Positions 1-64,000 of a stretch of DNA of 64,000 nt are shown one piece after another. Source of the DNA: Paraglomus occultum (Eukaryota > Glomeromycota > Glomeromycetes > Paraglomerales > Paraglomeraceae); NCBI GenBank assembly GCA_910592205.1, contig CAJVPJ010000014.1:1-64000 (forward strand), given 5' to 3'. The notes under the pieces were generated by a model. That model was given only the letters and a program-made list of their open reading frames with translations, was not told the DNA's origin and did no database searches. Made by a program: the position numbers and the translations under genes. The first letter of the stretch is position 1. Each line of letters begins with the position of its first letter.

Positions 1-2184
1 AAGGAAAAAACGATCGTCCTGAGTTTTGTAATAAGTATTCATGCATAGAATCATCAATCAGCATTTTAAAGCGTAAATATTACGTGGCAAATTGGGCATC
101 AATGGGATCCGGGTTTAATAATTTGGGGAAAAGTTCTATAAACATTTTTTGTCCCATGTCTAAATATCTACGAAACCACTTCCGAACCAGCGACAGAGTT
201 GGAACATAAACAGGGTTCAACAATTCCCGGATCCACTGACGCCTCAATTTTTTTCACGTAATCATCCTGCGAATGCGATATTAGTACCTTCGGGTGAAAT
301 GCAATCGCAGTAACAAAATCGGTATGTTGAAAACAGCATAGACATTCCGAACGTGTTATATGCCATAATCTACAACAAACGTACGCTTCTGTTATTATTA
401 AAGTTATACGGAATGTCGTTATTTCATTCTTATTCAATCCTTACCTCACTGTCTTGTCCATTGACGAAGATAGCAAAAAATTGTTCTATGAAAAAAAAAA
501 GTTGAATTTCAGTAACATTGACTACAAAGCATCTTTTCCGTCCATCCCTCTTCTTCCCATCAAAACTGAAAGAGATTTCAAACCTTGCTCCAGCTCAGAT
601 CTAACACGTCAGCAGCATGTCCATGATATTCATACATAGGCTTGTCTCTAAATACCGGAGCACCAAGCTTGGCCCCGCTCTTTCCTTCGTATATGCTTGT
701 TCCACTCCCTTCAGCAAAATGTTCTCTTTCCTCATCACTAGATATTACAGCCCAAACACGAACAACAGCATCTTGACCTCCAGTCGCTAAAAATTTGCCA
801 TCTTTACTAAACTTCATAATCCATATTGCCCCCGTTTTATTTGGACCGAATTTGGAAGATTGTGTGTTGGGGTTGAAGAGTTCCTGAGACAGGAAAAGTC
901 GATTAAAGTCCTTTTTGGTTTTGAAACGTGTTCTGACCTGATGGAATAACCAGAAAACAACGATTAAAGTTTATATGGCGATGCAATGACCCGAGCCAAT
1001 TCATTACAATTGTATCTAACCTTGATGTATCGTGGCTGAGCCTGACCATCATAAGATTGAACATCAGAATATACAGGGGCAGTGTTTCCCGTAAGAAAAT
1101 TATCGTCTGCATCCTCTATACCTTTTTCGTGATTAGAAGTCCGTTTCTTTAGCCGATTTAGGAACGACCTTGGGCTGAGACCAATTGATATATTCTGTAT
1201 TAATTTGAATACGTAAATGAATTCGCGTCTCCCGTTATATATATTTTCTTACCGATGATGTTTGCCATTTTTCTCTCTATCTCTTTTGTCATGCTCATTA
1301 CTATCATCATCTATCCCTTTTGATAAGCCGTTCCAATTGCCACTTCCGTGTTTAGCCTCATCATCTCGAGGGCTACCCATATCAGTATCAGAGCCTGTTC
1401 GTTTCAGTATATGAAACGAAAGCGGATCGATTTTCCCATTATTTGATTTTTTTAGTTCTGCCTCTACATCTGTTGCTAACACTTGCTTCCCAGTGTCTAG
1501 ATCTTTAACATACACTGTCACATCGGGATCTTCTTCGCAATTATCGGTTTCGATAAAAGTTTGAGAAGGATAATTGTCATTGGCTATAAATAAATTGGAG
1601 GTAACGGAATTTAGTAATAATTAAGAGAATGCTAATTAGTTGACTAGTGCGACTCCCGTATCGCACTGGCATAGTTATCAATAGTAAAAAAAACTTTATC
1701 AAAGACAAGAAAATATCAAATTGTTCTAAATGAAGAGTGAATTCGATCACTTTTCAAATAGGAAAAACAGCAGGAATGTATGCTAAAAGGAGTATACATC
1801 TAAATTATACTCTCTGGTATTATTGAAATTAGTTTTACCTGAAGTCAATGATGCATTATCCTTATCTCTTCTAGATGATACATCGGCTTCTGCAGTTTGG
1901 TCGTCTTCTGACAATGATCCACTTCCAGACAGACTGTAATCGGGGCCATCAGACAATCCATTCAATTCTTGTTCCCCATCGTCTAGTGATGTATCAGTAA
2001 CTGATATCTCTGGAATAACGCATTTTTTATCGTCCTCCTTAGGTAGAGACGCTAACAGCTTGCTACGAGCGGCGGATGATAGTTGAACAGCGGAAAATCT
2101 GAGATTTAATGGGCGACCATTTAAATCATAGAACGTATCCTCTGCATCTACAAAACTATCGCTGTCGTTATCGGAAATGTTCAT
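1..2184 (-). CDS. WD40-repeat protein, WDR44/Dgr2-like (partial, 3' end off window)
   Basis: Seven exons on the minus strand can be joined in phase: 2184-1839, 1583-1253, 1174-1021, 937-584, 485-445, 369-288 and 18-1 (runs off the left edge), giving the first 442 codons. The start is ATG at 2184. The first ~220 residues are acidic and Ser-rich (disordered), followed by a conserved linker ending in RLFLSQELFNP and then WD40 blades: one begins IMKFSKDGKFLATGGQDAVV and closes with a GHAADVLDLSWSK strand, the next carries LLSSSMDKTVRLWHI, and the third starts FHPK|DDRFFL across the last intron. This order matches the fungal WDR44/Dgr2 family, whose animal member binds Rab11 in endosome recycling. 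Fungal function is poorly defined. The remaining blades lie outside the window. Family assignment is fairly secure; function is inferred from homology. Confidence 0.85.
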
Positions 2185-7388: not shown

Positions 7389-10300
7389 ATGAGTCAAGCC
7401 GCGAGGGGAGTCGGCGACCCGAGGCATGCAGCAATATCAACTAATGATAACTTGAGGCGGTCTACTAGTGTGAACAGACCCAAGGAGTTTGCATCAAAAG
7501 TCAAAAACAGAAAAACTTCGAAACGAGAACGGAGAGTGTTTGTTAATCTACCTTTACCAAGTACTCACCTTGACCGTCGAAATGATCCAAAAGTCAAATA
7601 TGTATCAAACAGAATTGTTACGTCGAAATACACGACATTAACATTTGTACCAAAGAACTTGTTTGAACAGTTCAGACGGGCGGCCAATATGTATTTTTTA
7701 TTTATGGCCATTCTGGGACTGCTTCCCTTTTTTAGTGTTAATAATCCAGTTTTAACAGTACTTCCCTTATCAACAGTCGTATTTATTACAGCATGCAAGG
7801 ATGCAGTCGAGGACTATAATCGCCACAAAATTGATAAACAGTTCAACAGTTCAACCTGCTACTATCTACAAAACTTTGTTAACGTCAACTATCCTATGGA
7901 GAAACGTGTTTCTCTCTTTGATCGAATCATCTCGAGTATTGTGGACTTTTTCACAGAGCTAGTCAAAATAAAACCAAAGGATCAAAAATCTTCACGTGAT
8001 GTTCAAGACCAAAGTAAGGTTGAGGAACGTCAAGAGAGTATTGACGAAGAACCGTCAAACAAGGTTAATGGTGATCCAGAATGGAAAAAAACATATTGGC
8101 GCAATGTCAGGGTCGGTGATTTTATATTTCTTCGTAATGGCGATGCAGTACCTGCAGATGCTATAATACTTTCCACCTCTGAATCAGAAGGCGGATGCTT
8201 TGTAGAAACCAAGGATCTCGACGGCGAAACTAATTTAAAACCTAGGAAGGCTATCCCTGACACTAACAACATTGGGTCTGCAAAAGACTGTGTCGAAACA
8301 AAATTTTATATTGATGCGGAGGCGCCCAACTCGAATCTCTACTCCTTCTCTGCTGCCGTAGCATTAGTTGACCCGGCCGACCCAGATATACAACAACCGC
8401 CGGCGGTAGCGACAAGGAATAGGGATTCGATACAGTCTGTTCAATCAGTTAGCACGAATCGTCGGAGTTCAAGAAACAGTAATTTTTCAATGCAAGCACA
8501 AAAGTCTGTGCCAGTCAATATTAACAACTTATTGTTACGCGCGCACGTTATAAGAAATACCGAATGGGTGATTGCGATGGTTGTGTATACTGGTGTTGAA
8601 ACTAAAATTATGCTAAACAGTGGAGAGACTCCTAGCAAGAGAAGTCGGATCGAAAAGGAAATGAACAAAGAGGTATATGTCTCGTGCTTGTCATACCTCA
8701 GTTCTCAATGCGTCATACGTCATATGTTCCTAAACGTTTTAAATTTCATTGCCTTACAGGTTATATTCAACTTTTTTGTTCTCATTGCCCTCGCTTTGAT
8801 CTGCGCTATTGGAAGTGCAATATCTTCTGCAAATTTGTCAAGTAAAACGAACGGAATAGCCACAAAGCTGTTAGATTCTAATCGGGATAGCATTGCGTTT
8901 GCGGCTTTTCTAACCTTTTGGTAAGTATGTGCCATCTTGCATATAACAGTCCCCAAGACTAAAATAAAAGAAAATTCACTAAATGTTTTTGTACAATTAA
9001 CAGGGCAAGTCTGATTATCTTCCAAAATATTATTCCCATATCACTATATATTTCTATCGAATTTGTAAAGACGTTTCAAGTAAGTTGGATTATAATATCA
9101 CTTCAAACAATGGGTCATTCCGGATGCGATGATATAACCTACCAATGATCCAATCAGGCATATTTCATTTATAATGACCTCGACATGTGGGACGAAGACA
9201 CACAAACTTCCTGTGTTCCCAAATCTGTAAGTATTTTGCTTTTTCCACCAATATTTTTTCAGCCAACCGCTAATGATAAATTTCTTCTTTCCAGTGGAAT
9301 CTATCCGACGATCTTGGCCAGATAGAATATGTCTTCTCTGACAAAACCGGAACACTTACTCGTAACGTAATGCAATTTCGTGAATGTTCAATTAATGGTA
9401 AAGTCTACGGGCGTAATGGATGGGCCGGTAAAACTGATGCCGAGAAAGGGAAAGAAGCAATGCAAGGGCAAGAAACGGATGTCACAAAGCAAGACCCAGA
9501 AGACATATGGCGGTCATATCTCACCGAAATGAGAAAGACCTTTGAACCCAAATACGCAAGTACGGATCCAAGCTTCTTGACTTTTGTCGATCCAGAGCTC
9601 TTTAGAGGGCTGCAGCACGTAAAGAACAAGGATGATGGCTTGGAGGATGGCGGTAGTAGTAGCGAAAAAGTAACAGAAACCGACAGTAGTAGAGGAAACG
9701 CCGAAAATATAAAAGAATTTTTTACGCTCTTAGCAGTGTGTCACACTGTAGTACTAGAGAAAAGTTTAGAAACAGGAAAAGATGAGAGTGATGATAACAA
9801 GGCAGAATCCGAAGCGTTAATATCATCCGACACTAATTCATCGACTATTGACATTACTCAGAATGGTAGCAGCACAGATGACATTCCTAACAAATTATCT
9901 CTTCGATTTGCAAAAGTCAGTATCAAAAAACATTTGAACACAAAACGCTTGGGTTCCATCGTACCATCCCTCGGCGGTTTAAATTCTTTGGTTGGGCCTT
10001 CTCCTTCGGTCAATAAAGGTCCACCAATAGATGGCACTGTTGCTGTTCAATTAGTCTATCAAGCCGAGTCTCCTGACGAAGCTGCGCTAGTTTCTGCGGC
10101 GAAGAATGTAGGTTTTGCTTTTTTGAGACGAAACAATAATTATTTGAGAGTGGACATACTCGGAACGGAATATGATTTTGAGGTTTTGAACGTTTTGGAA
10201 TTTAATTCGACAAGGAAACGAATGAGTATCATTGTACGAAGACCAAAAGAGTTGGGAGGTGATGTTGCATTGTTTTGTAAAGGAGCAGATAACGTCATAA

Positions 10301-12687: not shown

Positions 12688-14451
12688 TCACACTGGCGCC
12701 GGGATTTCTTCCACACCTTCTAACCCAGTAACATTTGATTTCCTCCTCTCTATCCACTCAACGACTCTTCCGGCTAACCTTCGCGAATTCAACACAATGT
12801 CATTAACACTAACGCCCAGATAACTGGCTCCCGCTACACTCAGCCTTCCCCCGCACGTATTCCTAATAGAATGGTGTAATTCCCGCATTCTGTCAAGATG
12901 CCCCACTCGATACTGTGGGATACATGCCCTCTGAATAGAAACATTCCACAGCATCGGTTCTTCTCCTATTCCCAAATGGTTCGATACAACCCATCGCGCA
13001 TGAGACAGCAATTCATCTTCATTTGGAATCGAATTCATTCCGGAATAATAATGTCCTCCCAGCATCACTGTCAGCTTGGTTATATTTACTTTGTCCTGAG
13101 ATGGAAGTGCATCAGAATCGAACACGACCCCGAGAGCGCTATAAATGTTATTTGGTGTTGATGCCGGGATTAAATAACCAAATCCAGTAACCGGAAGAAG
13201 AGATGGATCCGAATACGCTAGATTAACAACTGCCACAGTAGCTGAGCGTGTTTGACACAGATGAGGAAGGGTGGGTGTGAGAATATGTGAGAGTATATCA
13301 GATGGTAATGTGCTTATAATGTGCAATGATGAGAAGACGGATGACTCTGTATGGACCTGATGTAAAACGAGGGAAAGGGAGAATCATTCACAAGGATTGG
13401 ATGAGAAGACATAATGATGGAATAGATATTATCAATATGATGGCAATTATCAATGAAACTAACCTTGGCTTTCTCATTCTCAATTTCAAGTTTGACAACC
13501 TTCTCACCAGTTTTAATAGTTACATTCTCTTTCATTTTCAGTTCCCTTTCCAGCGCATCGACCATCATCTGAATTCCATCCTTAAATGAAAATATGCTGA
13601 TTTTACTCATATCATTCATTAAATCTCCTACACATTCTCCAAGTTCCCTCTCCAATTCCCTCTTATCTCCCACTTCTTTCAACCCTCTCATTAGTCCTTT
13701 TAACACTGATCCATAGTAACGTTCATAATAATACAAAGAAGGAAGGACAGAACGGACGGATAACTGGTTAGCGTCTCCAGCATATATTCCATGTATCACA
13801 GCACTCAGTATATTATCGGCAATGTGAGAGTTAAACCGACGGGCCATAAACGCGCCGATAGATTCGTCATCAGTGTTGGCAGGTTTGACAAAGGGTTCAC
13901 GAAGGATGCCTGGAATTGCCTTGCGGATGAAAGCACGAGATAAAGACGGAGCGAGAGAAAGAAGAGAATGAGGTAACTTGTTGAGACGGTCGGGATAGTA
14001 AATGTAACGATTAAGAGCAGCAGGATGAGTTTTTGGTATGGTTATGAGAGAAGGTGTGAGATTAAGACATTTTATCTATCAAAGTGATAAATGATACGCG
14101 TTAGAAAAAAAGAAGTTACTTGAAAATAATTTACAAGCACGTAAATGCATTGCACGTTTCTCACTCTACAATATTATCCTAACCTCCTCTTATTCTCTAC
14201 TACATTAGCTTCCTCACCAACTCCAATACGGCTAGCCCGCCCAGCCCACCAGGTCTTATTGTTCGTGGACCATACTCAAAGAGTATTCCCTGCTCTCCAT
14301 GTCGTCTCGACTGTATCCACCCACCAAGTCTGTTTGATGCTTCTATTATTGTTATTTTACATGACTTTGGCAAACTTTGTGAGAGATACCAAGCCGTAGA
14401 GAGACCCGATATACCACCACCTAAAATGGCGATGTTGAATGTGGAAGGCAT
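12688..14451 (-). CDS. HEM14: Protoporphyrinogen oxidase
   Basis: Three phase-0 exons, 14451-14218, 14075-13464 and 13356-12688, give 504 aa (human PPOX 477, yeast Hem14 539). The enzyme oxidises protoporphyrinogen IX to protoporphyrin IX at the inner mitochondrial membrane, the penultimate step of haem synthesis. The N-terminus has the FAD Rossmann motif (NIAILGGGISGLSTAWYL, with the following acidic ITIIEAS strand) and the family signature RLGGWIQS. THPAALNRYIYYP, VKPANTDDESIGAFMARRF and VIHGIYAGDANQLSVRS follow, and VTGFGYLIP and a late NDIVLNSRRLAGRVVEW segment complete the FAD enzyme. I chose ATG 14451 because the frame upstream only offers a TTG at 14496. No classical transit peptide is evident, as in human PPOX. 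Confidence 0.93.
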
Positions 14452-14746: not shown

Positions 14747-16223
14747 CTATATACCAGAAACTCTACGTCCCTTAACAAAGACGTCTATAATATTTCTGTC
14801 ATCACCTAAAAATATAAACTTTTCAAATACACGCTCAGTATCGTCCATGTCGAAAACGTCGATAGGAGATCCTTCTGCACAAGGATCGATCAAAAGTGCA
14901 TCAAAATCCTTTCCAACTTTAAAGTTCCCAACAGTGTCTTGCAAATTAACCAACTCTGCTCCACCCATTGTGGCCAAGAAAACCAACTCGGATAATTTAA
15001 GATGTTCCCCATTCCCATCTGTCATAGCAACAACTCTGCTGGTTGCACTCGCTCTACGCATAGCATCCAAGATACTCTTGCTTCCTCCACCACTTATATC
15101 AGTCCCGAGCCCGACTTTGATACCATCTTGCAATAATTGGCGAACTTTGCACACACCGGATCGAAGAGCCAAGTTCGAATTAGGGCAATGAGATATACCA
15201 ACATTGCGTTGCTTGAGCAGATCTCTTTCATCATCCGTCAGGTGCACTCCATGAGCCATGATCGTTTTATGATTGAGTAATTTATGATGATCGTATACCG
15301 ATGTATAATCCTTTATGTCTGGAAACAGTTCGGAGACAAACGCGATTTCCGCAGTGTTTTCCGATAAATGAGACTGTATAGGGACATCATACTTTGCTGC
15401 AATGTCAGCGAGAGCAGTCATAAGCTTTTCCGTACAAGTAATGGCAAACCTCGGAGTCACTATAGGCTGTACTAGATTTTCGCCCGCATCAAGATCAAGC
15501 ACATATTTCACAAACTCTTCTGTATGCAGTACACTATCGTTACTATTCTCTACGTAGTATTCAGGAGAGTTTCTATCCATGTTCACTTTGCCAATGAAAC
15601 CTCGCTGACCACTACCTTTTACCGTTTCTGCTAGATACTTTGAAGATTCCAGATGAATCGTTGCATAGTATACGGCGGTCGTCGTACCGTTGCGAAGCAG
15701 ATGGGAGACGAAGCGAGGATAGATTTTTGCCGCGAATTCGGTTGATGAGAACGAATGTTCTAACGGAAATGTATACTTTTCAAGCCACTCCAGTAGTGGG
15801 AGATCCATTCCTGTGCCTGCGTTGGCATACTGAGGAGCGTGCTGTGTGGAAATATATAATTGGTTAAACGAAAGACTTTGACTTGAAAAAGGGGAAACCA
15901 GACTGACCGTGTGCGTGTCTATAAAACCAGGCATTATGAATTGCCATTCGGATAATCGTATGAGTTTCTGAAAGTTTTAACAAGGTCAACGACCAGTAAC
16001 TGTCAGAGCAATAAATTTTCAAGTGGGCTTTAAAGATCTCTACCGAATCTTCAGCCAGGCCTTCCAAAATACTATCCAATTCCTCTGCTTCCACGTTCTC
16101 TTGCAATGAAACAATCTTGCCGTCACCGTCTACGCTTAATAATCCATTCTTTATGATATGCAGCTTGTCTAGAGACAAGGAGTGTATTATTGTCCCATAA
16201 AACAACTGTTTGACGTTAGACAT
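14747..16223 (-). CDS. Guanine deaminase
   Basis: Exons 16223-16044, 15967-15908 and 15841-14747, all phase 0, give 444 aa (human GDA 454). The enzyme hydrolyses guanine to xanthine and ammonia in cytosolic purine catabolism. Amidohydrolase metal and active-site signatures are present: PGFIDTHT|HAPQYAN (HxH, split by intron 2), QSHLSENTAEI, a MAHGVHLTDDE segment, CPNSNLALRSG, and the late zinc/catalytic Asp in GLGTDISGG. The frame starts at ATG 16223 with MSNVKQLFYGTIIHSLSLDK, the usual beta-sandwich start of this family. It lies tail-to-head behind HEM14 on the same strand with a 250-bp gap and is divergent from pyruvate kinase. ADE/CAD-type amidohydrolases are less likely given the PQYANAG and DISGG context. 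Confidence 0.93.
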
Positions 16224-17955: not shown

Positions 17956-20368
17956 ATGTTCAACGCCATGGCCAACGAAACAAGTCTTGGATGGATCACA
18001 TCATTGACACTCGATTTCCCCACGCAAAATATTCGCAAGACATCCATCATTTGCACTATTGGTATGTGCATATAACTCCCCATTTGTGTACTCATATATA
18101 GGCAATGGTCGCTGAATACTAATGTTTCGCGTTAAACCATGCTTTTCAAGGTCCTGCGACCAATACTGTGGAAAAATTAGTAAAATTACGGAGCGCGGGA
18201 ATGAATATTGTCAGACTAAATTTCTCGCATGGATCTCATGAGGTAAGTGACCGCGTATTTTAATCAAGAGAAAATGAGCCGTAATAATTAACAAATTCGA
18301 AACCTTTATAGTATCATAAATCGGTAATCGATAATGTCCGAAAGAGTTATGCCTGTAAGTCTCGCACTTTTCGTTGAGTCTAAAAGCTTCTGGTATCGTG
18401 TTTCTATCTTTGACGCCGCCTTTTTTTTTTTACCTCCAAAGTGCATCACGGACGACCAGTTGCTATCGCTCTCGATACGGTAATCTACAATGCAAATACT
18501 CTGTGTGTTTGTGTGTTTATGTAAACGCTAAACCACGTATCTTTTGTTGATCAACAATTGTTGTATCATATACACGTTGACACCATGTAGAAAGGTCCAG
18601 AAATACGAACGGGTATTATGAAAGACAATGTCGAGGTAAGAGATTGCTCGTTGGTTTTTTCGTTTTCCATTTTGCAACAAACTCGTTTTAAGAAATGGTC
18701 AATTTCTAGCTTCCGATAGAGGCGGGTCACATAATGAACATTACCGTCGATGACAAATATGCCAATTGTTGTGACCTCGACATGCTTTACGTCGACTACA
18801 AGAATCTTTCCAAAGTTATCGAAGTTGGGAAAGTAATTTACGTCGACGATGGTATCCTATCTTTTAAAGTGCTCGAAGTCCATGATGACCATTTGAAAGT
18901 ACAAGCGTTAAATTCTGGCACTCTAAGCAGTAAGAAAGGGGTTAACCTACCACAAACAGACGTTGATCTTCCTGCGATATCTGAGAAAGATAAAGGAGAC
19001 TTGAAATTTGGAGTTGAGAATAACGTGGATATGATATTCGCGTCGTTCATACGTAGCGCCAATGATGTCAAGGCAGTCAGAGCTGTTCTTGGAGAAGAGG
19101 GAAAATCTATCAAGGTTATTGCTAAGATAGAGAATTATCAAGGCGTTAACAATTTCGATGAGATTTTGCAAGAGGCTGATGGAATCATGGTTGCAAGAGG
19201 TGATTTGGGGATTGAGATTCCAGCATCGCAGGTGTTTGTTGCTCAAAAGATGATGATTGCTAAATGCAACCTTGCCGGGAAGCCTGTTATATGGTATGAA
19301 ACCCATTATTGTTTTTATGGGCCATGAATTTTCCATGTATGGAACGTTTGAACTTACTCGAGTTTTTCGGTCTGCTTCCCCAGCGCCACACAGATGTTAG
19401 AGTCTATGACGGTAAGTTTTTGGTTTCTCATATTGTTATATTCTTTCGTTATTTTATCCGACGACTTTTTGATACATTTTGACGGAAACAGTATAATCCT
19501 CGACCGACGCGCGCAGAAGTAAGCGATGTTGCAAACGCGGTTCTCGATGGTGCAGACTGTGTTATGTTATCTGGTGAAACGGCCAAAGGGACCTATCCTA
19601 TCAAAGCTGGTATGTTTTCATGTCATACACGTCAATTTTTATATCGTTTCATATATATAAGCTTATCCATTTTTTCTTTTAGTGGAGATGATGCACGAGA
19701 CATGCGTGAGGGCTGAATCAGTGATCTTTTATCCAACACTGTTCAATCAACTGCGAGCTCTAACCGTCACGCCAACACAAATACCAGAAACAGTAGCTTC
19801 GTCTGCTGTATCTGCAGCTCACGAGCAGCAGGCTGGATGCATTCTTGTGTTGTCGACTTCTGGCACTACCGCTCGGTTTATTTCTAAATACAAGCCAAAA
19901 TGTCCAATTATTACGGTGACGAGAAATGAACAGACGGCCAGACAAATCCATTTATGTAGAGGATGTTATCCATTTATTTATGATCAGCCTCGTAAAGATG
20001 ACTGGCAAGAAGATGTCGAAAGTCGAATAATGTGGGGAATGTCACAAGCCGTGCAACTTGGGTATGTTGAAGCTGTCGTGCGTTGGTTTGGAAAGTTAAC
20101 CGCGCAGAAAATTAGAAACTACTTGTTCTAGCGTACCTTAATTGCGTATGTTGATTTCTGCTGAACGCGTATCATTTTTTGTCCACTGTAGAGTTCTTCA
20201 TGCGGGAGATACCGTAATTGCTATCCAGGGATGGAAAGGAGGTCAGTAAACTTTCTGACATGTTTCCCTCCGATGTTTGATCATCAATACGTCTAACGTG
20301 TTTCTATTCGTAAAGGTCTCGGAAATACAAATACTATGCGAATCTTAAAGGCGCCCGAAACTGACTGA
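17956..20368 (+). CDS. Pyruvate kinase
   Basis: Eleven exons: 17956-18061, 18151-18242, 18312-18354, 18442-18479, 18591-18635, 18710-19293, 19384-19411, 19492-19609, 19683-20061, 20192-20241, 20316-20368; all phases agree and give 511 aa, the normal length. The enzyme makes pyruvate and ATP from phosphoenolpyruvate and ADP, the last step of glycolysis. Visible: [39 protein letters not shown], the B domain, catalytic Lys in [22 protein letters not shown] for metal binding, [39 protein letters not shown], and the C-terminal effector domain ending [20 protein letters not shown]. The start is the first ATG after the TATA box. Exons of 28-50 nt make this gene easy to miss without splicing. Confidence 0.96.
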
Positions 20369-20916: not shown

Positions 20917-22217
20917 CTACAGACTAAAGCTTGAATAATTACTAAGATGTGCGTCAGTTTTAATTTCTTTCTCATTGCTTATCTCTGCCAAGCTGTATTT
21001 ATCGTCTATTACTTTGTTCAGTACTGGGAGTGTAGTTGCAGACGTGTTATTGTCCCCATCTATCACCACTCTAATTGTAGTCGTAGACGCAGGAATTAAG
21101 TTGAAATGTTTGCTGGGATAAAAGACCAGAACTGAACGTGGGAAAACCATGTTAGTCACCAGTATTTACATTAGCGTTTATACATGTGATGTATTGCTAC
21201 TTACTGAGAATAATCCAGTCGAGTGTATGAGCCAAATTTGCGATATTGGCAAATAAATCGGATATAAATTTATTGCTGTTGAGCGTCTTTTCAGGCGTTA
21301 ATCCATCGACAGAGAGAATGAAGAATGAGATTGTACCAAGTGCAATACAAGTCATAAAGCGCGTATTCATATCCCTATAATACACAAGCTTGCTTGTTAT
21401 TAGTTGACCATCAAGCACCCCTTTGCTTTCATTGATAAATTGACTGAATTTGAAGTGTGCTCTGATTCCATAAAGAATTATGGGAATGTTACATGTTACT
21501 GCAAATAGCCTTGGCAGTACCTAAAAGATTACGCAATCAAATATTAGATTCCTTGGTGATAAAAAAACCAGTTTCACAATGTTCTTACTTACAAGAGCTA
21601 ACAATTCATTATATTGGAAAACAAATGGAATCAAGGGAAAAATTACGATGGCAACCAACGCAAAACCGTAATTGACTTTAAAATGGGTGCTTGCGATGAA
21701 ATTTTTTTGAACAATTGTTCCAGTCAAATAATTCCAGAAATTTTGCAACAAAAACAGTCCCGCGTTTTCAATTGCAAAATATGTCATCAGTAGGTAAGTA
21801 TCCATGTTTGACAAACGCATATCTTTTTCCGACCACAGTATTCCTGGTTTAGCTAGTGCCTGTCCATTGGGAAGAAGGATAAATCCTTCTTTGTATTTCA
21901 GATACGATGCAATCGAATCGTACAATGTGATTAAGAAAAGACAGATGAAGAAGAGAATTGTCATCAAGGATTTGATTTCGCCGTGTCGAATGCGATGCCA
22001 TCGTAGAGCCTCAAATTTGTCAACAGAGTAGATATGGAGCGCAGCCCACGGAAGAAGGAAGTAACCAGCTACTGCACGCTCTGATTATCAAGAAAAGAGA
22101 AGGGTAAAATTCGTCAATCGACAGTAATAATCGTGATTTAATAAAAATATTATTGGCGTTGACCACGATCGGTGATTACTTACGAAGAAAAGAATAGTCA
22201 GACTGTGAAGAAATCAT
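20917..22217 (-). CDS. Seven-transmembrane protein, GPCR-like, unknown
   Basis: Exons 22217-22184, 22071-21593, 21520-21205 and 21131-20917 join in phase to 347 aa. I do not recognise a named family. Seven hydrophobic segments are visible: ~13-28 (GYFLLPWAALHIYS), ~46-68, ~103-128, ~145-165, ~170-195, ~228-250 and ~275-300. The loops are charged, and a polar ~70-residue C-terminal tail (rich in Asp, Ser and Lys) follows. This is the topology of a fungal GPCR-like protein, but no diagnostic motif (e.g. DRY, NPxxY) is clear, so it could be another multi-pass membrane protein. The start at 22217 lies in an A-rich leader (AAAAAAATG); exon 1 encodes only 11 residues. Confidence 0.7.
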
Positions 22218-25852: not shown

Positions 25853-28264
25853 ATGTTTGAGTCAGAATCTCAGGACTTTTCCAACGATTCGGAATTCTTG
25901 GACGCATCCCCAAATACCTTTAGGCGAACTATAAAAGAGCAGTTCCACAACACTCGGGCTACCAGCAACAGTTCTCTATTTCAAGACCCGGAAAACTTTG
26001 AAGACGTGTCCGATCAGTTTCCCATACTGAAAAGGGTTAACCAAGGAGCGGTTGAGAACGTTGAGAAATTGAGTGGAACACATATTGCTGACGAAGCTGT
26101 GCTCTATTCTCCAGTCAACAGCGATGGAGTAGGGGTTGGCGTAGAAGTCAATTTGGAGAGTGAGAGAAAGACCGAAGTCTTTGTCAACGACACTAACAAA
26201 AACATTGAAAACACTAAAAATTTTAATATAAAAAACATAGAGAATGTAGAGAATGTAGAGAATGTAAAGACTGTTGTGAATGAGGTGAATGTGAACAGGG
26301 GCATTGAACAAAAGAAAAAGAAAAGGTGGAAGTGGTTATGCTGTCCGATTTTTTGGCCATTCTATTTTTGTTTCTGGCGTGGGGAGGATAAAAGTCTGCC
26401 GATGACAAGAACAGACATTGAGATAAACCAGACAATCAAAGATAAACAAAAGATCAAAAAGAAGCGCAGAAACTGTTGCTTGATCATTCTTTTGATTATC
26501 ATAATACTTTTATTGCTCGGAAACATGGTTGCGTTGGATGTTAGAACTTTGCAATCTCCCCTTAATTCAGCTAGTTCTACGGACACCACCAATACTGTTG
26601 ATTCTCCCGTTCAAGTCAAGAAAGCGGTTTGCATTTCGCTCTTTAGCGCGTTTACTTTGCAACCACAACAATTTCCCTGCGATTTCTGCACCAGCGATTC
26701 AGATGTGGCTCCCAACATCACAGACTTTTGCGTGTTGAAAGGGATATGGGCTAATGCGGTTAACGTGACTTCAATAGAGACCGTGGCCGGCTGGATGAAG
26801 GATAATAACTTTTGTAAATGGGTTGGCGTGACGTGTGATCAGGGAGGAAGGGTCGTGGCATTACAAATGAGTTTCCCAAATGTACCGAATACTTTTATAG
26901 ACGATCTGGGTAACTTGGAGAACTTGTCATCCTTGTAAGTTTAACGATATCTATATGCATACCGTAGTTACTCGATGTACCACTCGTTGTTTACCAATCT
27001 TCTAATTCGTTTCTTTCACCCCGTGAGTAGAAAGATCACGGGCAACTCTCAAGTTCCAAGCGGCCCGTTTCCAACCAGTCTGTTTAATCTTAAAAACCTG
27101 GCTACCGTCAGGCTTGAACTGACTGCACTCTCCAATATGCCAAACACGTTCGATAAGCTGTCTTCCCTGACATCTTTGTAAGTATTCACATCGGCACGTC
27201 AGCTCTTTGATAATTTTTGTGACTATGCTAATAATTAATTTTAAATGCCGCTCACTACTTATAGGCAATTAATACGAAATCCTTCATTAGGCAATACATT
27301 TCCGAGTTCCGTTGCGTCATTGTCTTTGAATACTTTGTAAGTCTTTTGTTTGATATCTGCAGTAGTCGATCAATCGTGGGCCGAATTTCTAATGTTAATA
27401 TCTTTTTTACAGGGCAGTCTCGGGCCAGAACATCGGTGGTGCAATACCTGATGTCATAGGCAATAGTGCGACTTTGCAATCAAGTCTGCAAACTTTGTAT
27501 GTATTTAGTCCTTTGATTGTTGACGCTATTACATTATTTCCCGTTTTCCTTTTTAATTAACACTACTTTTCACTTTTTTTTTCTTTAGGGATTTGAGCTT
27601 TAATCAGTTTACTGGGACTGTGCCGGCTTCGCTTCTGCAGCTGAAATCTCTGACCTCTCTGTAAGCACATACAATTTGTCGTGTTTCGTTAAACTAAGAG
27701 CCATTCCTTTTCTCAATTTGCTTAATTGATCTAATATTTATGGATGTTTTCTTTTTTTTTCCCCCCATAGGGTGCTTGGTAGCAATCAGCTCTCAGGCCC
27801 AATTCCTGCTCTTCCGACAAGTCTAACCACGTTAGATCTTAATACGAACCAATTTTCGGGGTCAATTCCAACCACATTGACACAAATGACTGGATTGACT
27901 TTTTTATCCTTGCAGGCGAATTCATTGACCGGACCCATCCCGCCTTCAATTACGCAACTGACAAAGTTGACTGATCTGTTACTTCAGGGCAATAAGCTTA
28001 GCGGTGGAATACCCGATGGTATCGGTAACATGAATATACTTAGATTGTAAGTAAATCAAAAGTTGTTTCGACGATTATTTATCGAGGTGAAATGCAAACA
28101 CCATTGCTCATCATCATTTGTCTACTATTTTCATTAGGAACCTAGCCTCTAATGCACTCACAGGCCAGGTGCCGACATCAGTATGTCAGAAATCGTACAA
28201 TGCGTGCGATCTCTCACTGAACGCTTTAACGTCTCCTATTAAATGTACCGTTTGTCTTGTTTAA
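25853..28264 (+). CDS. Type II membrane protein with plant-like extracellular LRRs
   Basis: Seven exons (25853-26934, 27031-27177, 27265-27336, 27413-27496, 27589-27660, 27771-28046, 28138-28264) give 619 aa. The N-terminal ~207 residues are acidic, then basic/Cys-rich, with a short Glu-Asn-Val repeat (~125-145). One membrane helix follows at ~208-229 (NCCLIILLIIIILLLLG) with positive residues before it, so the N-terminus should be cytosolic. The outside part has an LRR cap with FCKWVGVTCDQGGRVVALQM, as in plant receptor-like proteins, then about nine 23-25-residue LRRs (e.g. LDLSFNQFTGTVPASLLQL), and a Cys-containing C-cap. All six introns cut LRR Leu codons at phase 2, and middle exons are 72, 84, 72 and 276 nt. 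No kinase is present. Ligand and role are unknown. Confidence 0.9.
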
Positions 28265-30178: not shown

Positions 30179-31896
30179 TTAGATAATTCTTTCTTTAGGA
30201 ACAACTCTAATCTTTAACTCTTTACAAACTGTAATCGTTGAAGTTTCTACTTTTACGGGGGCGTTCATATCTAACAACTCGACATCAAACCTTCTATAAA
30301 CTGCGGCTAATAACGTTTTCAATTCGATTATTGCAATTTTTCTACCTAGACACATTCTCGGACCTCCACCAAACATTGAAAACGAATTTTTGTGTATTCC
30401 CTGATTTTCATAAAACCTTTCCGGGATAAACTTTTCAGGTTCTTTCCAATAAAGTGGATTGTTGTTGATTCCACGAACGTACATTATGAATAACGTTTTG
30501 GCCGGCCACAGGTGTCCTGCTATTTCGTCAGGTCGTTGACTGTATCTTGAGACCATACTAACTGTAGGTCTTATCCTTGACGTTTCTTTAATAATCGCTT
30601 CAACGTATCTTAATTTTGCAAGATCTTCTAATGTTATCGGTTTATATGGGTCATCTTTGAATACTGTTGCAAGTTCTTCCAGCAATTTCTTTTTAACTTC
30701 TGGATGATGTGTGATGTAATATAATGCGAAACAGAAAGTATTTACGGTCTAGAAAGAAATTAATAAATAATAAATAATGAATATTAATAACAATTTAAAT
30801 TTTAAAAAAGGGCATAATTTTACAGTGTATTATTTGTGCAACTCACCGTATCTGTACCAGCAACAAACGCATCAAACATGACACCACGAATTTCATCATC
30901 ATTCATTGGTCTGTTCAATGATGGATCAACTTTTTCTTGAGGATGGGAATCATATTGTGTATTAGCAACGATTAAAGATGTCAACAAATCCATCCGTTTC
31001 GTGTCAAGTTCGCCATTCATGATTGTCTTTTCGACTTCTTTTCTTTTTTCTTTAACAATATCCACCAGTTTTTCGTAAAATCGGTTACAATTCTTCAATA
31101 GTTTGTCCACACGCGGTTTGATGAAAGGCAAGCTTCGTAAAATTTTCGGTATAAATATAACTTGATTGTCTGATACAAAGGTATTTATGCATTCGACAAA
31201 CTCTTCAGTATCGAGTATCTCTTCGGTGAGCGGTTCATTCTTTAATCTCTGACAATAATGCTTCATGACGGCCATTCGCTTTCCGGCCGTCAACATGGCG
31301 ATAAAGTCCGCTGTAAAATGACGCATCCAAACCGAGATGTCGATAACGGCTCCCCTCTCGCCTGTGTGCTGCTTTAAATCGATCCAATGTTGTTCCATTT
31401 CTTTATACAATTGGTTCAAGATCATGCTCGGTTTATCTGTTAAACTCAATGGCATGATGGCCTGGGAAAAGATATGGCGGTTGAATTTCCAATAATTGTA
31501 ATCGTGATTCAGTCCTACACCCTTCTTCTCAAGATCGAATAAATCCAATAGACCGTTATTTGCAGTTCTCATGATATGCGCCTTGCTATCGGTAGCCACG
31601 AGAGTGTCGACATATTCCGCGCGAGTGATTACGATTTGTCTATTGCCAGCAATATTTAATTCGTATATGCCATTGTGTCCGTATTTTTTGTTTAATCTCC
31701 AAAACCAGGCGTCAATGTCTTCCATGAAAATCGCGAGACTGCCAATTAATGGAATTGGAGTTGGACCAGGAAACGGATTAAGACGGGTAAAGTGTTTATA
31801 ATAGAAATGTATTACATATATGCATGTTAAGGATAACAATCCAGTTAAGATATCGGTAAATGTAATGTTGCTGAGAATGTTGTAAAGCACACCCAT
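30179..31896 (-). CDS. Cytochrome P450 monooxygenase
   Basis: Exons 31896-30847 and 30748-30179 give 539 aa, typical of fungal microsomal P450s. The N-terminus has a membrane anchor (FTDILTGLLSLTCIYVIHFYY) followed by the Pro hinge PFPGPTPIPLIG. I-helix AGTDT is split from the next Thr by the intron; K-helix ETSR (in IKETSRIRP), the PERF segment, and the haem loop FGGGPRMCLGR with the thiolate Cys are all present. P450s insert oxygen into lipophilic substrates on the ER using a reductase partner. The substrate is unknown; the sequence resembles a P450 type I know from Glomeromycotina (inference). The in-frame ATG at 31953 overlaps a TATA box, so I take the next ATG, 31896, as the start. Confidence 0.93.
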
Positions 31897-31952
31897 GTTG
31901 AATAATGAATAATGAAAACTTTCTTGGGTAAATGCTTCGCATCCAAAGGCCA

Positions 31953-31960
31953 TATATATA
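31953..31960 (-). promoter_or_regulatory. TATA box of the P450 gene
   Basis: TATATATA on the minus strand lies 57 nt before ATG 31896, the same spacing as TATA to ATG in the pyruvate kinase gene. The ATG at its 3' edge is therefore unlikely to be in the mRNA. Confidence 0.5.
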
Positions 31961-33896
31961 CCATTTCTTGCCCATTTGTCTCATTTATCTAACGCCATAT
32001 AGACCGCGAAACACCATTGGTTTCTCAAATCAATTGACACATGGCGACAAACTCCGGATGATTTTCCAATATTAAAAGTTGTACGTAAATCCTATCGGAA
32101 TCAGACTTCTCATTTAGCTGTCAATGCATATTACCAATTTTTGAAACAATAAATTTAAAAACTCTAAAATAAGGTTACTCTGGCATAGGAATTACCATAT
32201 TAATAGTTTATTGATATTACCATAAACCTTAATGACAATTTGTTATGACTAATGACTTTATCGTATGGTATGGATGCAAACTTTTTGCTGGTAATCCAGA
32301 CCGCACTAGGCAACACATGAGCGACGATTATGATACACAGCGAAACTCGCTACAAGGGAACTGATTGTTGATGTAACCGGTATAGTTTAATACAGACAAT
32401 ATCAAAATATACATTCAACTTTTGTCTTGATACTGTCTATCGAAACTTGTTAGTGATTTCTCGATATCATTTGCACAGTCTGACCAATCGAATGATATCA
32501 AATTATTAGATATTAATACTGGCATTTCCACTCTGTTCCACAAGGCGCTATAAGTGGTGCACAAATAAAAAATGACAAAAATGAAACGGAATGAGCGGAC
32601 AATCCTTATACCCAGACGTTTAGAATATTGGTCGAGTCTTGACGATCATGTCTGTGTGTGCGGAGAACATGCGATTCAAAAATTAGTAATTAATAAGGTC
32701 AATGCTCCGATTAACGTTAAAAGAGAAGTTTCCCTTTCGCAAAGGGGGTCGATATGATGTTCCGTGCTTCTGAAAAATAGACTTGTTCAAGCGTATGATC
32801 TTCGATTGTGACGAGATAGTCTTATGTAATTTTGATCGAACCAATTAGTTAGTGAAAACGCCTCTAGTTTTTTGTTCACAAATCAAGACGTCGTGTGCAT
32901 TTTGTGGCTTTAAGAGCTCAACCAAAAAGTATTTGTCCGGTTAATACTAAACCGTATAGAAAGTTACTTTTTGAATACCTGGATTGTTCGCATATATTAT
33001 GTAAGGAACAACAATTTTATATCGATTCGCAGTTAGTTGATGTACTCTTTTGAAAATAATGATATATTTTCAACCTATTATCGTTATAAGTTACACAACA
33101 TATTACAACGTATCGCTACTTCAGCCAGTCAGCCATCAGAAAGTATGGCCAATTGGGTTCAAAAACGATACAAATATTATGTAATTTGCTTAGCAGATGC
33201 AGACGATAGAAGTCAGGAAAATCCGAAAATAGGTTTTGGTGATTAGCGTACAATCGTAGGGTTTGTGAAAGTACCTTCAACAAAGACAAGTAATCAATAA
33301 TTGGTGTATCGTCAATGAAGAAATTCACATAACCTCACAAGACTCGTTGCATGTAAAAGGCATTGGAATTACGTCGAAAGATCTAATGTCAAACTGAATC
33401 CGTAATAAATTTCCTTTTGAATCGATGACACTGTATAACGGAAATTAGCGTAATTTATTGTAATTATCTGGTATATCGCAAACCTTGAAATGTTGCAACC
33501 GTACCCTTTGTTAATACGCATCGGTATGAACAATTACTTATTACATTTGCCACAGAAACAATCGTTGTTTCAAGTCATTGCGAGTTTATGTGTGGATTTA
33601 GCGATAAGCATGGTTAGACCCGTTGTTTTGCGTTTCACTGTGCGCTTATTCAAAAAGCATATAATATATTTTTCATTTCAAAATTATTGATTTTGATGCA
33701 TTCTTTGAGCATACTTCACATGAAAGAATATACACAGAATGGCCAATCAAAAAAAACCCCGTGTAACAATAGCTAATTATAGCTGCGATTTTGCCAAAGC
33801 ACGAAATAAATGACCTAATCGACGACAATACGTCCCGCCCCTTGCTAACCAGTAAGCGGTTTATTTCCTTTCAAAGTATCAGTATCGGCGTGTATC
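31961..33896. other. Gene-poor intergenic region
   Basis: No convincing gene in 1.9 kb. Frames such as 32572-32757 (+) and 33037-33246 (+) are short and lack recognisable features. Confidence 0.45.
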
Positions 33897-56833: not shown

Positions 56834-59175
56834 TTAGACATCGCGCAACGGATGTGATTCACCCCTAAGGACAGCACGAAGAGGCTTCTGTACAAGCCAT
56901 ACTTTCCTGTCGATCTCACTCTCACTTTCATCTCCATCCTCTCCATCACCTCCATCCTTTCCATTGCCTCCATTCCCTCCATTCTCTCCATTGCCTCCAT
57001 TGCCTCCATTGCCTCCTTCACCTCCATCACCTCCATTCCCTCTATTGCCTCCATTGCCTCCATCACCTCCATTCCCTCCATTGCCTCCATTGCCTCCTTC
57101 ACCTCCATCACCTCCATTCCCTCCATTCCCATTTTCACCTTTCTCAACATCATCATCAATAGCGGCTTCTTTCGTCTCCTTATTCTCTTCGATCTCTTCA
57201 GGAGCTCGATCAGCCTCATCCTCCGTTGCAGTATCAATTAATCCGACCGCAACTGCAGGTGAAGGTGCAGTTCCAGATCCATCATCAAACTGTACTGTAG
57301 ATGTACGACCCACGCCTTTACCAAGTTTCCCTCGACGGTAAGCATCAGACAATGCCGAATTTGACGTCTTCTTTTTGTTCGTGTAATCTATATCCCAAAT
57401 GTTGCTGCCCCTCAACGGAGAAATAAATGGAGTCGGATTACTATCTCTTGCTGATGACGATGATGTCCCAACGTTGGCATGTCCGGCATGTATTGGGTCC
57501 AGTGGTATTTCGATTGAAATATCGGGTCTGTTCTTTGTGTTTTCCGCATCCTGATCGAACCAGCCGGATCCAGACACATATGGCCTTGTTGCAGTAGACG
57601 TATCGTAAATGGATGCGAAACGATGCGAAGAGCGGCGAGATCGTTGAGATCGTTGAGAGGAAGCGCGCTGTAGTGCTTGGGAGGGTACCAAGGCTGTTTT
57701 TCTTTACATCGATTGAGAGGGAGGGAGATACGGTTTTTGGTGAAAAAGCAAATGTAAGTTATTATTTAAAATAGTAATCTCATTTAACAAACCACTTGTT
57801 TACTTACCGGCAAAACAAGACTATTTGGACAATGGTAATTACAACTACAGGCACGTAATTCCAAAATATCATGAACAATGCCCCAATTCCTTGTTTCCAG
57901 ATCGAAGGATTTTTGGCAACGAAAACAAAAGCGAAACGCGAGATGCCGTCAGTGAAATAAATGCAAGTCAACAAGGCGAATATTCCTATTAGCTATTTTG
58001 GCGAGAGGGGAAGACAGAACCCAGATCATTCAGCAAAAAGACAGTCAACAAAAGTCTGACACGCAATCTCTTGGAAAAAAGATTCAACAAAACTCACCCT
58101 CCATTTAAAGCTTTTCAACTCCATGACTCGCCATTGATAATAAACACCTTTTCTGTGAATTTCTCTCAAGCTTTTTGAATAATCTCTCAAAACATTGTTT
58201 AATTTGTACCATACAAGTATCGTTGAAATAGTATAACCCAAGTCCCAGATGCCGATGAGAAAATACTGTAGTTTGAGTATATTATTGGCACTTTTGAAAT
58301 TGTTGTTGTCAGCAAGGTGACCTGTAAGATACGCAATTGGCAACACAGAGACAAGCGGACCGAGTATAACGCTAACGCTTATGATATCAAGCATGCAAGT
58401 ATTGTGTGTCCATCGTATCTGCCTCTTGGCTATTGGATCGAGTGAGGCTATTGAGTAAACTAGAAACGGAAGAAGAGAAGGAGACGTGTTATTGGTGAGA
58501 TTACATCGATAAACAAGTGGAGAATTGGACAACTGACGGGGGGAGTTGGTCCCATCAAACTTACTCAGACTAATTGGGTATAACGTCGTTAGTGATAGAG
58601 TGAGTACGCGAGGTAAGGCAAACCCGACTATTGTGAGAATTGGAAGATGATGATTAGATACGACGTTGCGATAAAACAGAATAATGCGTAACCATGTACT
58701 TACTTTCTGCCACTGCAACATTGCCGTAGGCTTCCTTTAGTAGAAAAATTATATCAATGCCAGAGACTGAAAGGATGGAAGGGAAGGGGGAGAGAGAAGA
58801 GGAACATGTTAGAACAAATTGATTACCATCATCATCTGCCTCTCATTATCCTTGTCATCTTTCGTTAGTTATATACTCACGCAAACAGAATAAACAGGCC
58901 ATAACATGAAAGGTATCTGCGGGTCGCGGTCGTAATATTCCTCTTTCTTTAGATGGTGGAAAGAACAATGACTGGTGTTTGACAAGTATTCGATGGACCA
59001 GCGTCACAATCGAAGTAAGCATTGTTGTCGCAGTTAAGATCAGCAATATCCAGTATGAAAAGCGTAGAAAAGTTTCCTCTGCACATCCGGTAATGTTCAC
59101 GCGAAAGTCGCATACACATGATTGATTGTCGTCAAAAGTGCAGATTCGAGTGAAATTGTTGACCAATCTCACCAT
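56834..59175 (-). CDS. GPCR-like 7TM protein with Gly/Asn-rich repeat tail
   Basis: Exons 59175-58881, 58730-58704, 58627-58098, 57992-57808 and 57701-56834 join in phase to 634 aa. The short N-terminus has several Cys and Asn-glycosylation sites (DNQSCVCDFRVNITGC), followed by seven hydrophobic segments: ~36-60, ~83-112, ~145-165, ~185-205, ~228-255, a helix reading LIGIFALLTCIYFTDGISRF, and IFWNYVPVVVITIVQIVLF. A basic intracellular loop precedes the sixth. The ~290-residue cytosolic tail has Ser/Arg-rich and acidic parts, then a NGGNGGDGGEGG-type repeat near the end. Topology fits a fungal G-protein-coupled receptor; no ligand class can be assigned. Exon 2 has only 27 nt. Confidence 0.8.
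56935..57135. repeat. Coding minisatellite, 9-bp units
   Basis: About 22 imperfect copies of a 9-bp unit (CCTCCATTG/CCATCACCT on the plus strand) encode Gly-Gly-Asn/Asp/Glu triplets in the GPCR-like tail. A longer block ending in CTTCACCTCCATCACCTCC is repeated twice, so the array grew by duplicating larger segments. Length is probably variable between strains. Confidence 0.85.
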
Positions 59176-60881: not shown

Positions 60882-62303
60882 TCATTCCTTTTTTAGCTCT
60901 TTATTTAATGCCTCCTTCAACAAGCCCAAGAGTTTTCGTCCCCGTTTTTGACTGATGGTTGTTCTTTTAACGCGGCTTTGCGGTCCAATTTCTGTTTGCG
61001 TGATAAAGTTCCAATGCACCATGAACCATGAAGTATGATAGGCGAGATTTTCATAATATTCGTTTGCTATTTTGCGCACTTCCGGAAGGCGTGACCACGG
61101 GATCTAGTTAATTTAGGAAGGAAGAACAGCCCAATCGATGGTGTTAAATCAAATACGTTGATTAAACATACAAATGAATGTTTTAATCTGCCTCGTTTTC
61201 TTCCCATCGTTGGCATAAATGGCAACACAAAACTTTTTGTTGTGTTCAATATCATCCGTCACATGTATATGTATGACTCGAATCAATCTCACCCGTTCTC
61301 TTGTTCCTTCAACCTTCCGAACATTAATCTAGCCTTAGCCTAACCTCAGTTTAATCTCAGTCTAACTACTACAACATTAACCTAAACCTTACCCTCTCTC
61401 GTCTTGTTTTCTTACCTTTGTAAAGTCATGGTGTTCATTATGATATCCGCTATTCATAAAGAAGTAATTAAGAATTCCGTAATACGAATACGTCTCTTGC
61501 CCATCATCAAAGGTATAATGTTCTTGTATCAAACGTGCAGCAGCCGGATGTAACCCATATCCAAACCATGCAGATAAACACAAATAGCCAAATCCTCGCA
61601 TTCCAAATGCGACATATATCGACAAATCGACCACACTAGTAAACACTACGTTCAAATACTCCCACATTTGTGGTGGATACTTTTGTATAGCGATACCACG
61701 TGCAACATACAATATGGGATATATATTCAACCATAAAAACTTCATTATCGCATTACCGCCAATGAACTCGGCCTCCCACTTCATTGGCAGATCTGGATCT
61801 ATTCCCACTATACCCAGATTCACATGATGCTCAAGATGATATCGACGAAACGACATTGCAAGAGGAACTGGTATACCAATATTAGCTATCAACCCAACAA
61901 TCCGATTCTGAAACATGGTTCTGGCGGTCAGTCCATGAGCTGCCTCGTGGATTATGTTTCCGAGTAACTGCGACGCCGAACCTCCAACCACATAAGCACA
62001 TACGCACATTGTCCAATGCCAATCGACGAGAACGCGGCCAAACACAAAAGCTGCACACAGTTGAACAAATACGGCAAAGAGTGCAATCAATACCGTGCAC
62101 GAATCATATCCGTAAAGTTTTTCGATTTCGGGATAGTGTTTGAGTATCGTTAACCGACGTTTGAGGTGGGGTTCGTCGAGGTTGTCTGTAGCAAACTGAC
62201 TTTCGACGGTCGGAAGCGACTTGGTCCATTCACCGATATACAATGGGTATCGGTAGTCTATGTGGTCAATTGGCGGTGGCGTTCTTGAAAGTGTCTTGGA
62301 CAT
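60882..62303 (-). CDS. Sphingolipid delta-4 desaturase (dihydroceramide desaturase)
   Basis: Exons 62303-61416 and 61103-60882 give 369 aa, close to fungal delta-4 desaturases. The enzyme introduces the 4,5 trans double bond into the sphingoid base of dihydroceramide in the ER, using oxygen and a di-iron centre. The N-terminal DES domain is present (YIGEWTKSLP, LKHYPEIEKLYGYD), as are the three His boxes HEAAH, HLEHH and HNEHH, with hydrophobic stretches between and GYGLHPAAARLIQEHYTF, a family hallmark. Exon 2 begins IPWSRLPEVRKIANEYYENL and ends in a Lys-rich tail. The true ATG is 62303; two upstream codons in frame are not a start. A TATAAAAA sequence lies at 62328-62335, very close to the ATG. 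Confidence 0.94.
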
Positions 62304-64000
62304 AACCAAGGTTGCAAAGACAAGAAATTTTTATATTACTTAAAAAAACTCTAAAGAAAAAACTGGCGAACAAACAATCGCACGCAGAGTGATGAAATCA
62401 AAGCTGTGTCAGATATAATAACGAAAATATCAAAAACTATGAAAGGATGGAATCTTTATATATCAAATGCAATGGTTTTATATTCAACTTTCGAGGCTGG
62501 TTCAAGGAAAAAAACTTGTCCTTTTCGACCGAAGCCATATTTATTCATTATTTTGTAGTTATTCTGATTGTCAATGTAAAAAATCAGACCACATCACACC
62601 GTCAAATCATCTTTCGCTCTCAAAGTGCCATCATGTTTCAATCTCCTTTTATATCCATACGTAACAATGGTATTGGTATTTGAAAATACCATATATAATG
62701 TAGTATTTACTACTAGAAAAACCTCTTTATCATCTTATACTCTACTTGTCGACCGTCTTTTCTAGACCTTTCGTTTCCACATCCCTAAAAGTGGGATAGT
62801 TTATAATCGTGATGCATTATCCAATAGACTACAAGTATTAGTATGTGGATGAGAAGTGACTTTCATAAATAAGGTTTATTAAAAAACAAGTGCAGTTTAT
62901 ATATGTAATATTTTTCCAAGTTTTCTACGACTCTCGGTGCAGTCGACTTTGTTATATACTGTATAATATATAATCTATTGCTAACATTCTGCACGAGCAC
63001 CGAGCATCGATATCCGGACTTATTGATATTCAAACCAAAGTCTGTTATATTGTTCATTTCCTTTGTCCAATGCCTGTTTTCGGAAATTTTTAAAGTGAGT
63101 CAGTCAGCTTGGATCGGTATGATAGCACTATGTCTACCCAAGATGCTAAACGATCCAAGTCATAATACACTTAGGTATTACTCAGTTTTGCCTTAATGAT
63201 TTGAGCGGGTCTTGTCCCTTTATCGGGTTTCGTAATGTGACTCTCGCATGTGATGTCACGTGTACAAGATTAATGATAATGTAAGTGAAATATAATAACC
63301 TTTATTCGATGTAAATAGATGGTGATAGCTTAGAAATGGTAACCTCACATATGATCTTCCGTTATCAGATTTGACGATCCAAACAAGCTTTAATGGTTGC
63401 TTAATATGGAATCACTTTCCACAAAATGCATATCGTTGTGTGAAAATTTGCATACAAATAAATGTCTTATTCATTATTTACTACAAAGCTTAAATTCATT
63501 TGGTCGCAACTTACGAAAATTCGCACAAGATTAAGATATACCCATCCAGAGTCGGTCGATGGCACTCTTTCGCTCTATAGTTCGCCCCCCTTCATTTATA
63601 TCCCCACTCGCTTTATTTCACCTCGCCATTGTCAAACAAATGTTCTATCCTCTACCCTCACCCGCTTATAGTCCCACTTGAGGCTGAACAAAATGGGAGA
63701 TATACAGGTATGACTGTATTGATTCTACTTTATTTTTCTCGACAACACAATCGTAATATTCTATGTCAGTTCTAAACTTTCGACTTTTCGTCGCCACTGG
63801 TTGTCAATTTCAATTACCTTTTAGTTATGTGTCACGTTTATCGTCAATTACTCAACCAGATTCATACAGAAGTTAGCCAAGCATCTATTACTGATAGAAT
63901 CTGCGTAGTAGTTGGATTAATATGTTCATAAATATATTGGTTACAGGTATTGTGATTCAGTTCGGGACATCTCAGTTCAGAACTCTGACATTTTAGTTGT
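62304..64000. other. Right-end region, possible gene start
   Basis: No complete gene. At 63580-63690 a C/T-rich leader-like stretch precedes ATG 63693, which is followed by four codons (GDIQ) and a donor-like GTATGACT at 63708. This looks like a tiny first exon of a plus-strand gene whose remainder lies near or beyond the edge. Several acceptor-like sites follow (e.g. TTTTAG at ~63825), but none gives a persuasive second exon. Confidence 0.3.

Follow-up and report, generated by a model that had tools for sequence, protein, structure and literature searches.

Phase-2 introns at a single leucine of successive repeats in a fungal gene for a predicted type II leucine-rich repeat protein

The window analysed here, a stretch of 64,000 nucleotides (nt) from contig CAJVPJ010000014.1, carries on its plus strand, at positions 25853-28264, a gene of seven exons that encodes a membrane protein of 619 amino acids (aa) with leucine-rich repeats (LRRs). 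All six introns, which are 76-110 nt long, interrupt the same residue of a repeat in the same phase. We consider it probable that this is a real, spliced and conserved gene for a type II sensor or adhesin, in which the phase-2 modules form a fixed and constitutive set. The best named relative of the protein comes from Paraglomus brasilianum (85%) and the next from Geosiphon pyriformis (46% over 61% of the query), and the source is evidently a Paraglomus-like fungus of Glomeromycotina. Paraglomus is an arbuscular mycorrhizal genus.

In the gene model, exon 1 (25853-26934) encodes an N-terminal tail that is probably cytosolic, a transmembrane (TM) helix, a Cys-rich cap and the first LRR; the same protein is found in the relatives P0001 and P0002. 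It is followed by intron 1 (26935-27030, 96 nt), which splits Leu361, exon 2 (27031-27177, 147 nt, two repeats), intron 2 (27178-27264, 87 nt, Leu410), exon 3 (27265-27336, 72 nt, one repeat), intron 3 (27337-27412, 76 nt, Leu434), exon 4 (27413-27496, 84 nt, one repeat of 28 aa), intron 4 (27497-27588, 92 nt, Leu462), exon 5 (27589-27660, 72 nt, one repeat), intron 5 (27661-27770, 110 nt, Leu486), exon 6 (27771-28046, 276 nt, four repeats with no intron within), intron 6 (28047-28137, 91 nt, Leu578) and exon 7 (28138-28264, 127 nt including the stop codon), which holds the last repeat and a Cys C-cap (C594, C601, C614 and C617). Every intron has GT..AG borders and lies in phase 2; the donor is GTAAG in five and GTATG in intron 4. 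The split codons are, in order, TTA, TTG, TTG, TTG, CTG and TTG, thus always Leu, and in each case this is the first Leu of the xxLxLxx motif. The five internal exons are all symmetric, so that each could be skipped in frame; two measure 72 nt, and three contain one repeat, one contains two and one contains four. We counted 11 LRR register sites, of which those at residues 337, 387 (a Val), 507, 531 and 555 are free of introns. The initial annotation had given exactly these lengths for exons 2-6, and had described six introns of one phase in a Leu codon at one repeat position, with whole-codon exons between them; the gene model agrees on every count. The interval it proposed, 26935-28264, covers intron 1 to the gene end and omits exon 1 with the tail, TM helix and cap.

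With 11 sites assumed in an LRR zone of 268 aa, six introns placed at random nucleotide positions would all hit the register with a probability of ~1e-12, or ~3e-5 when restricted to the 50 Leu codons of this zone; both figures take the introns as independent and are post hoc. The shared intron register is not a product of chance.

Two relatives support the splicing pattern. P0001 (616 aa, 2222-base contig, 94% identical) and P0003 (393 aa, 1310-base contig, 88% identical) both span all six junctions with no gap. These contigs are probably RNA-derived, because no such frame could arise from genomic DNA that contains these introns. Retention of an intron leads to an immediate stop in five of the six cases, because TT or CT followed by GTAAG reads Leu-stop; intron 4 stays open for ~20 residues. 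Intron-retaining transcripts would thus mostly terminate the solenoid at a repeat edge.

The TM helix lies at about residues 207-226 (26471-26530), as indicated by hydropathy and by the AlphaFold helix 184-229 of P0001. Because the basic stretch KIKKKRRNCC precedes it, the positive-inside rule suggests an N-in/C-out (type II) orientation. The LRR starts at residue 337, so the TM helix comes first and the LRR is not N-terminal to it; this TM-then-LRR order is the one that the initial annotation had read. Between the two lies the Cys-rich N-terminal cap (26630-26860), which is LRRNT_2-like, with the motif W..NFCKWVGVTCD and cysteines C260, C276, C279, C293, C321 and C328. The family LRRNT_2 (PF08263) scores 21.1 bits at 26786-26839 in the genome search, against a cut-off of 20.7, and stays under the cut-off in the whole window protein (19.3 bits) and in P0001 (20.3 bits). 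LRR_1 and LRR_8 exceed their Pfam cut-offs in the window protein, and the predicted model matches the fold of plant LRR receptors from model residue 284 onward. A Pfam search of the window protein up to E 1 gave no kinase family, and in the tail neither a kinase nor a TIR domain was found by this search; a DUF3671 match there lay below its threshold (19.4 bits, cut-off 34).

A disordered tail of ~200 aa would thus be followed by one TM helix and then, outside, by the Cys-rich cap, about 11 plant-type repeats and the Cys C-cap. Such a protein would most likely be placed at the cell surface, in the cell-wall space, as a sensor or adhesin; this likely role is suggested by the fold and the topology, and by the fact that no signalling domain was recognised. 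The concave face of the LRR would bind a ligand, and in signalling the tail would recruit partners.

The order of TM helix, cap and LRR recurs in other fungi. The whole-protein search gave 879 proteins; the best 120 of the 879, most of them from plants, were considered and four were used (P0001-P0004), of which P0002 is without its C-terminal end and P0003 without the tail and TM helix. A search with residues 155-365 (end of the tail, TM helix and cap) gave 11 matches, namely three Paraglomus-type proteins, P0121 and seven Rhizoctonia-type proteins. The Geosiphon protein P0004 is missing from these although it appears in the whole-protein search, so the word filter overlooks relatives. The search with a Rhizoctonia member gave 29 matches including the query, with 10 from Rhizoctonia solani, 6 from Ceratobasidium, 2 from Tulasnella and 11 without an organism name. 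Rhizoctonia, Ceratobasidium and Tulasnella make up a group in the order Cantharellales and, like Paraglomus, live with plants. Alignments of 8 and 15 proteins reveal a common order of tail, basic stretch, TM helix, FLNVR/ALDVR, a Cys pattern, W...C.W.GV.CD and LRR, and the window protein has the basic stretch, TM helix, Cys-rich cap, LRR and Cys C-cap in this order. In the alignment P0003 begins after the TM helix, P0002 and P0121 stop before the C-cap and P0150 is without the long tail. The alignments indicate that the inverted TM-then-LRR order is normal for this fungal family. The initial annotation had called this topology unusual in a fungus, which does not hold for the Paraglomus-type and Rhizoctonia-type proteins. 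Rhizoctonia-type proteins such as RSOLAG22IIIB_04307 ('L domain-like protein') share the basic stretch, TM helix, FLNVR/ALDVR, Cys pattern and cap-LRR order with the window protein, and differ in having about three repeats fewer, a longer linker and a first intron that apparently lies just before the FC of the cap. The Geosiphon pyriformis protein G9A89_017298 has the same order and the same repeats at 46% identity over 61% of the query, and differs in a longer tail, a 6-aa insert in the part of exon 6 and single-residue differences.

A tree of 12 rows places the window protein, P0001, P0002, P0004 and P0121 together on one side (100/100). Here P0121, which has a long branch, adjoins Geosiphon (90/92, unstarred). 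The tree is drawn with a midpoint root and excludes P0003; it carries a long-branch warning that includes P0121, and P0121, P0004 and P0150 have an odd composition. The fungal TM and cap family and the 85% relative from Paraglomus brasilianum rule out plant contamination. Pattern scans of viral and of bacterial/archaeal contigs gave 22 and 31 pattern matches, respectively, and no relative among them. In five Rhizoctonia and Ceratobasidium records (P0126, P0131, P0132, P0133 and P0138) the LRR protein is joined to a TPR (PF07719) part; some of the joined records are named 'translocation protein Sec72' and may be fused models of neighbouring genes.

Since every internal exon can be skipped in frame, the modules could in principle vary the ectodomain, by skipping or by strain-wise gain and loss of exons, as the initial annotation had proposed. 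Brown-algal ROCO genes have 72-bp phase-2 LRR exons for which shuffling and alternative splicing are reported (PMC11378527; this and the other papers are cited for excerpts of their text). For the Paraglomus gene we regard such variation as very unlikely, and the comparisons lend it no support. Wherever they overlap the window protein, all four relatives (P0001-P0004) agree with it repeat for repeat, and exons 3, 4 and 5 contain no gap in any of them, Geosiphon included. These three are also the best kept LRR exons relative to Geosiphon, with 13/24, 17/28 and 18/24 identical residues, compared to 20/49 in exon 2 and 40/91 in exon 6. The one larger difference in repeat number seen is the absence of about three repeats in the Rhizoctonia-type proteins; by our reading of the alignment it maps to what is here the intron-free exon 6, extending into the beginning of exon 7, and not to the single-repeat exons. 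Recent duplication of exon modules is rejected, as the introns share no detectable likeness (all 15 pairs score no more than 1.4 s.d. away from shuffled pairs). Nor is the concave face hypervariable within Paraglomus: with five concave positions per repeat, which is our own choice, 53, 49 and 47 of 55 are identical (96, 89 and 85%), compared to 96, 90 and 89% elsewhere, a pattern that does not suit a fast arms race. The layout looks settled rather than like a machine for making variants. The phase-2 modules would be spliced constitutively and held as a fixed set, and the layout would be inherited or formed in this lineage without serving as a working variant generator.

Several points weigh against this reading of a sensor or adhesin with fixed modules. 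The support for splicing comes from two transcript-like proteins, and some exon skipping may occur. The LRR exons are conserved to much the same degree among the Paraglomus proteins, where exons 3-5 do not stand out clearly from exons 2 and 6. Between Paraglomus and Geosiphon only 13 of the 55 concave positions are identical, compared to 88 of 176 other positions and 27 of 33 scaffold positions; this divergence would suit a change of ligand between lineages over long times. The type II topology is predicted from sequence, and both ligand and partner are putative. Finally, the protein searches scored 7992 and 7993 candidates, only part of all candidates, and such searches do not fix the limits of the family.

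The genome searched, a 32.3-Mb assembly of 1408 contigs, contains one full and one broken copy of the gene and shows no expansion, which also speaks against a variable ectodomain. The second copy lies on contig C1182 (3744-5379) and is 72-85% identical in DNA to the window gene. Its segment matching window positions 26495-26831 is inverted, no match was found in it to window positions 26110-26494 and 26832-27722, and its first frame ends ~20 residues past the breakpoint. The inverted cap gave no score in the LRRNT_2 genome search. The break looks recent, because the differences in exon 6 lie mostly at third codon positions (32 vs 7 and 6), or else it reflects a misassembly. This only paralogue found retains the 276-nt exon 6, intron 6 and the acceptor of intron 5 at the same sites, so that introns at unrelated repeat positions, named by the initial annotation as evidence against a modular layout, are not seen in it. 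The whole-genome LRR_8 search gave 40 matches, and besides C14 and C1182 we inspected contigs C551, C451, C1180 and C293. C551 carries 14 LRR motifs in one open frame of 748 aa and C451 carries 12 in one of 536 aa; in C1180 the motifs are divided between two frames, with 8 in 301 aa and 5 in 250 aa, which makes an intervening intron likely. A genome-wide habit of LRR introns is therefore not supported by C551 and C451, and C1180 speaks the other way.

The layout itself is known from other eukaryotes. In rice LRR-kinases, too, phase-2 introns split the first Leu of xxLxLxx and exons measure 72 nt (PMC3050792), and the LRR-RLK genes of Brassica rapa are mostly of phase 2 (PMC4654520). The likeness to plant receptor genes suggested by the initial annotation is thus right, and is stronger than could be known from the window. 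Plant LRR receptor kinases and receptor-like proteins (FLS2, MIK2, GSO1, ERL/TMM) also share the plant-type solenoid and the Cys-rich N-cap, whereas in the window protein the LRR follows the TM helix and no kinase was found. The ROCO authors further report that the introns of gonadotrophin receptors are all in phase 2 (PMC11378527). The brown-algal ROCO proteins are a GTPase family, and no homology is claimed to them or to the animal receptors beyond the LRR. Tetrahymena LRR genes likewise form arrays of symmetric exons with phase-2 introns, and differ in exons of 90 bp, in numbers above 1000 genes in most species and in species-specific expansion (PMC6564038). In PMC11863921 and PMC8286064 the phase-2 introns concern peptide genes and not LRRs. 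Among the open-licence PMC papers listed, up to 25 per search and by titles and abstract starts, we recognised none on this gene or on fungal phase-2 LRR exons; new here are the occurrence of the layout in a fungus and in a type II protein.

The agreement with rice in split residue, phase and exon length could reflect common descent with plant LRR-receptor exons, either taken from the host plant with their introns or retained from an old eukaryotic intron-containing LRR module. The mostly phase-2 introns of Brassica rapa, the plant-type repeat consensus, the LRRNT_2-like cap that scored at one place in the genome and the single open frames of two other LRR genes of this genome, with 14 and 12 motifs, are in line with such an origin. 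The TM helix and cap are, however, common to the Rhizoctonia-type proteins, which argues for an old fungal gene, LRRNT_2 lies at the edge of its cut-off, and the same phase in brown algae and gonadotrophin receptors makes recurrence possible (PMC11378527). The relatives also argue against it. P0121, on a 90-kb contig, consists of one 507-aa frame that aligns to residues 169-577 of P0001, which covers the positions of introns 1-5 and reaches approximately that of intron 6; if the contig is genomic DNA and its frame was predicted without splicing, introns are absent at those sites in this neighbour of Geosiphon. P0142, P0143 and P0145 all end with ...GPA(T/V)Q, just ahead of the FC of the cap. 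At this point P0144 diverges for seven residues, which looks like read-through at an intron. P0146, a Tulasnella-like open reading frame (ORF), passes the first Leu site and diverges from P0147 after DNSVPS. Family members elsewhere in fungi thus appear to carry introns at other places, and the layout seems not to be shared beyond Paraglomus. Common descent with the plant exons is unlikely.

Parallel intron gain within the Paraglomus lineage is a possible but tentative alternative. Introns would have been inserted into one repeat after another at equivalent sites, helped by the similar sequence that surrounds the Leu codon in each repeat. It would account for introns that are unlike one another, for relatives apparently without introns at these sites and for the 5 of 11 register sites that are free of them. 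Usual proto-splice sites have AG before the donor, and here TT or CT precedes it. Six introns on one register are improbable even among Leu codons, and intron loss in the relatives would give the same picture.

It is improbable, to about the same degree as common descent, that this mycorrhizal fungus shows an inverted, host-receptor-like LRR ectodomain with intron sites homologous to those of plant LRR receptors, whether the exons came with their introns from a plant host or survive from an LRR module that predates the divergence of plants and fungi. If true, the ectodomain may bind a plant peptide or wall ligand, or imitate a plant receptor where fungus and plant meet. The intron pattern is a marker for deep homology versus recurrence. 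A survey from 2010 reported that fungi have almost no LRR receptors and dismissed Cryptococcus CNAG_04363 as a likely gene-model error because a TM helix precedes an LRR N-terminal domain in mid-protein (PMC2939053). A table in PMC4567374 gives a different product under this tag, so CNAG_04363 is only a candidate member of the family. With the TM-before-LRR order now seen in two fungal groups, gene models of this kind may be correct, and the number of LRR receptors in fungi may have been underestimated. The family occurs in plant-associated fungi and its ectodomain resembles plant peptide receptors, which makes binding of plant peptides or of the fungus's own peptides testable.

No RNA families or tRNAs were found in the window. 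Seven of the eight neighbouring ORFs tested have a Pfam family, none of them LRR-related: 578-970 (-), 7389-8924 (+), 13314-14075 (-), 14747-15976 (-), 18710-19327 (+), 30820-31980 (-) and 61389-62330 (-). The families are WD40, phospholipid-translocating ATPase, amine oxidase, amidohydrolase, pyruvate kinase, cytochrome P450 and sphingolipid Delta4-desaturase; ORF 21521-22084 has no Pfam family. A 45-nt tandem repeat of 4.4 copies (56928-57127) lies inside ORF 56834-57703 (-), which reads as GNGGNGGDGG repeats.
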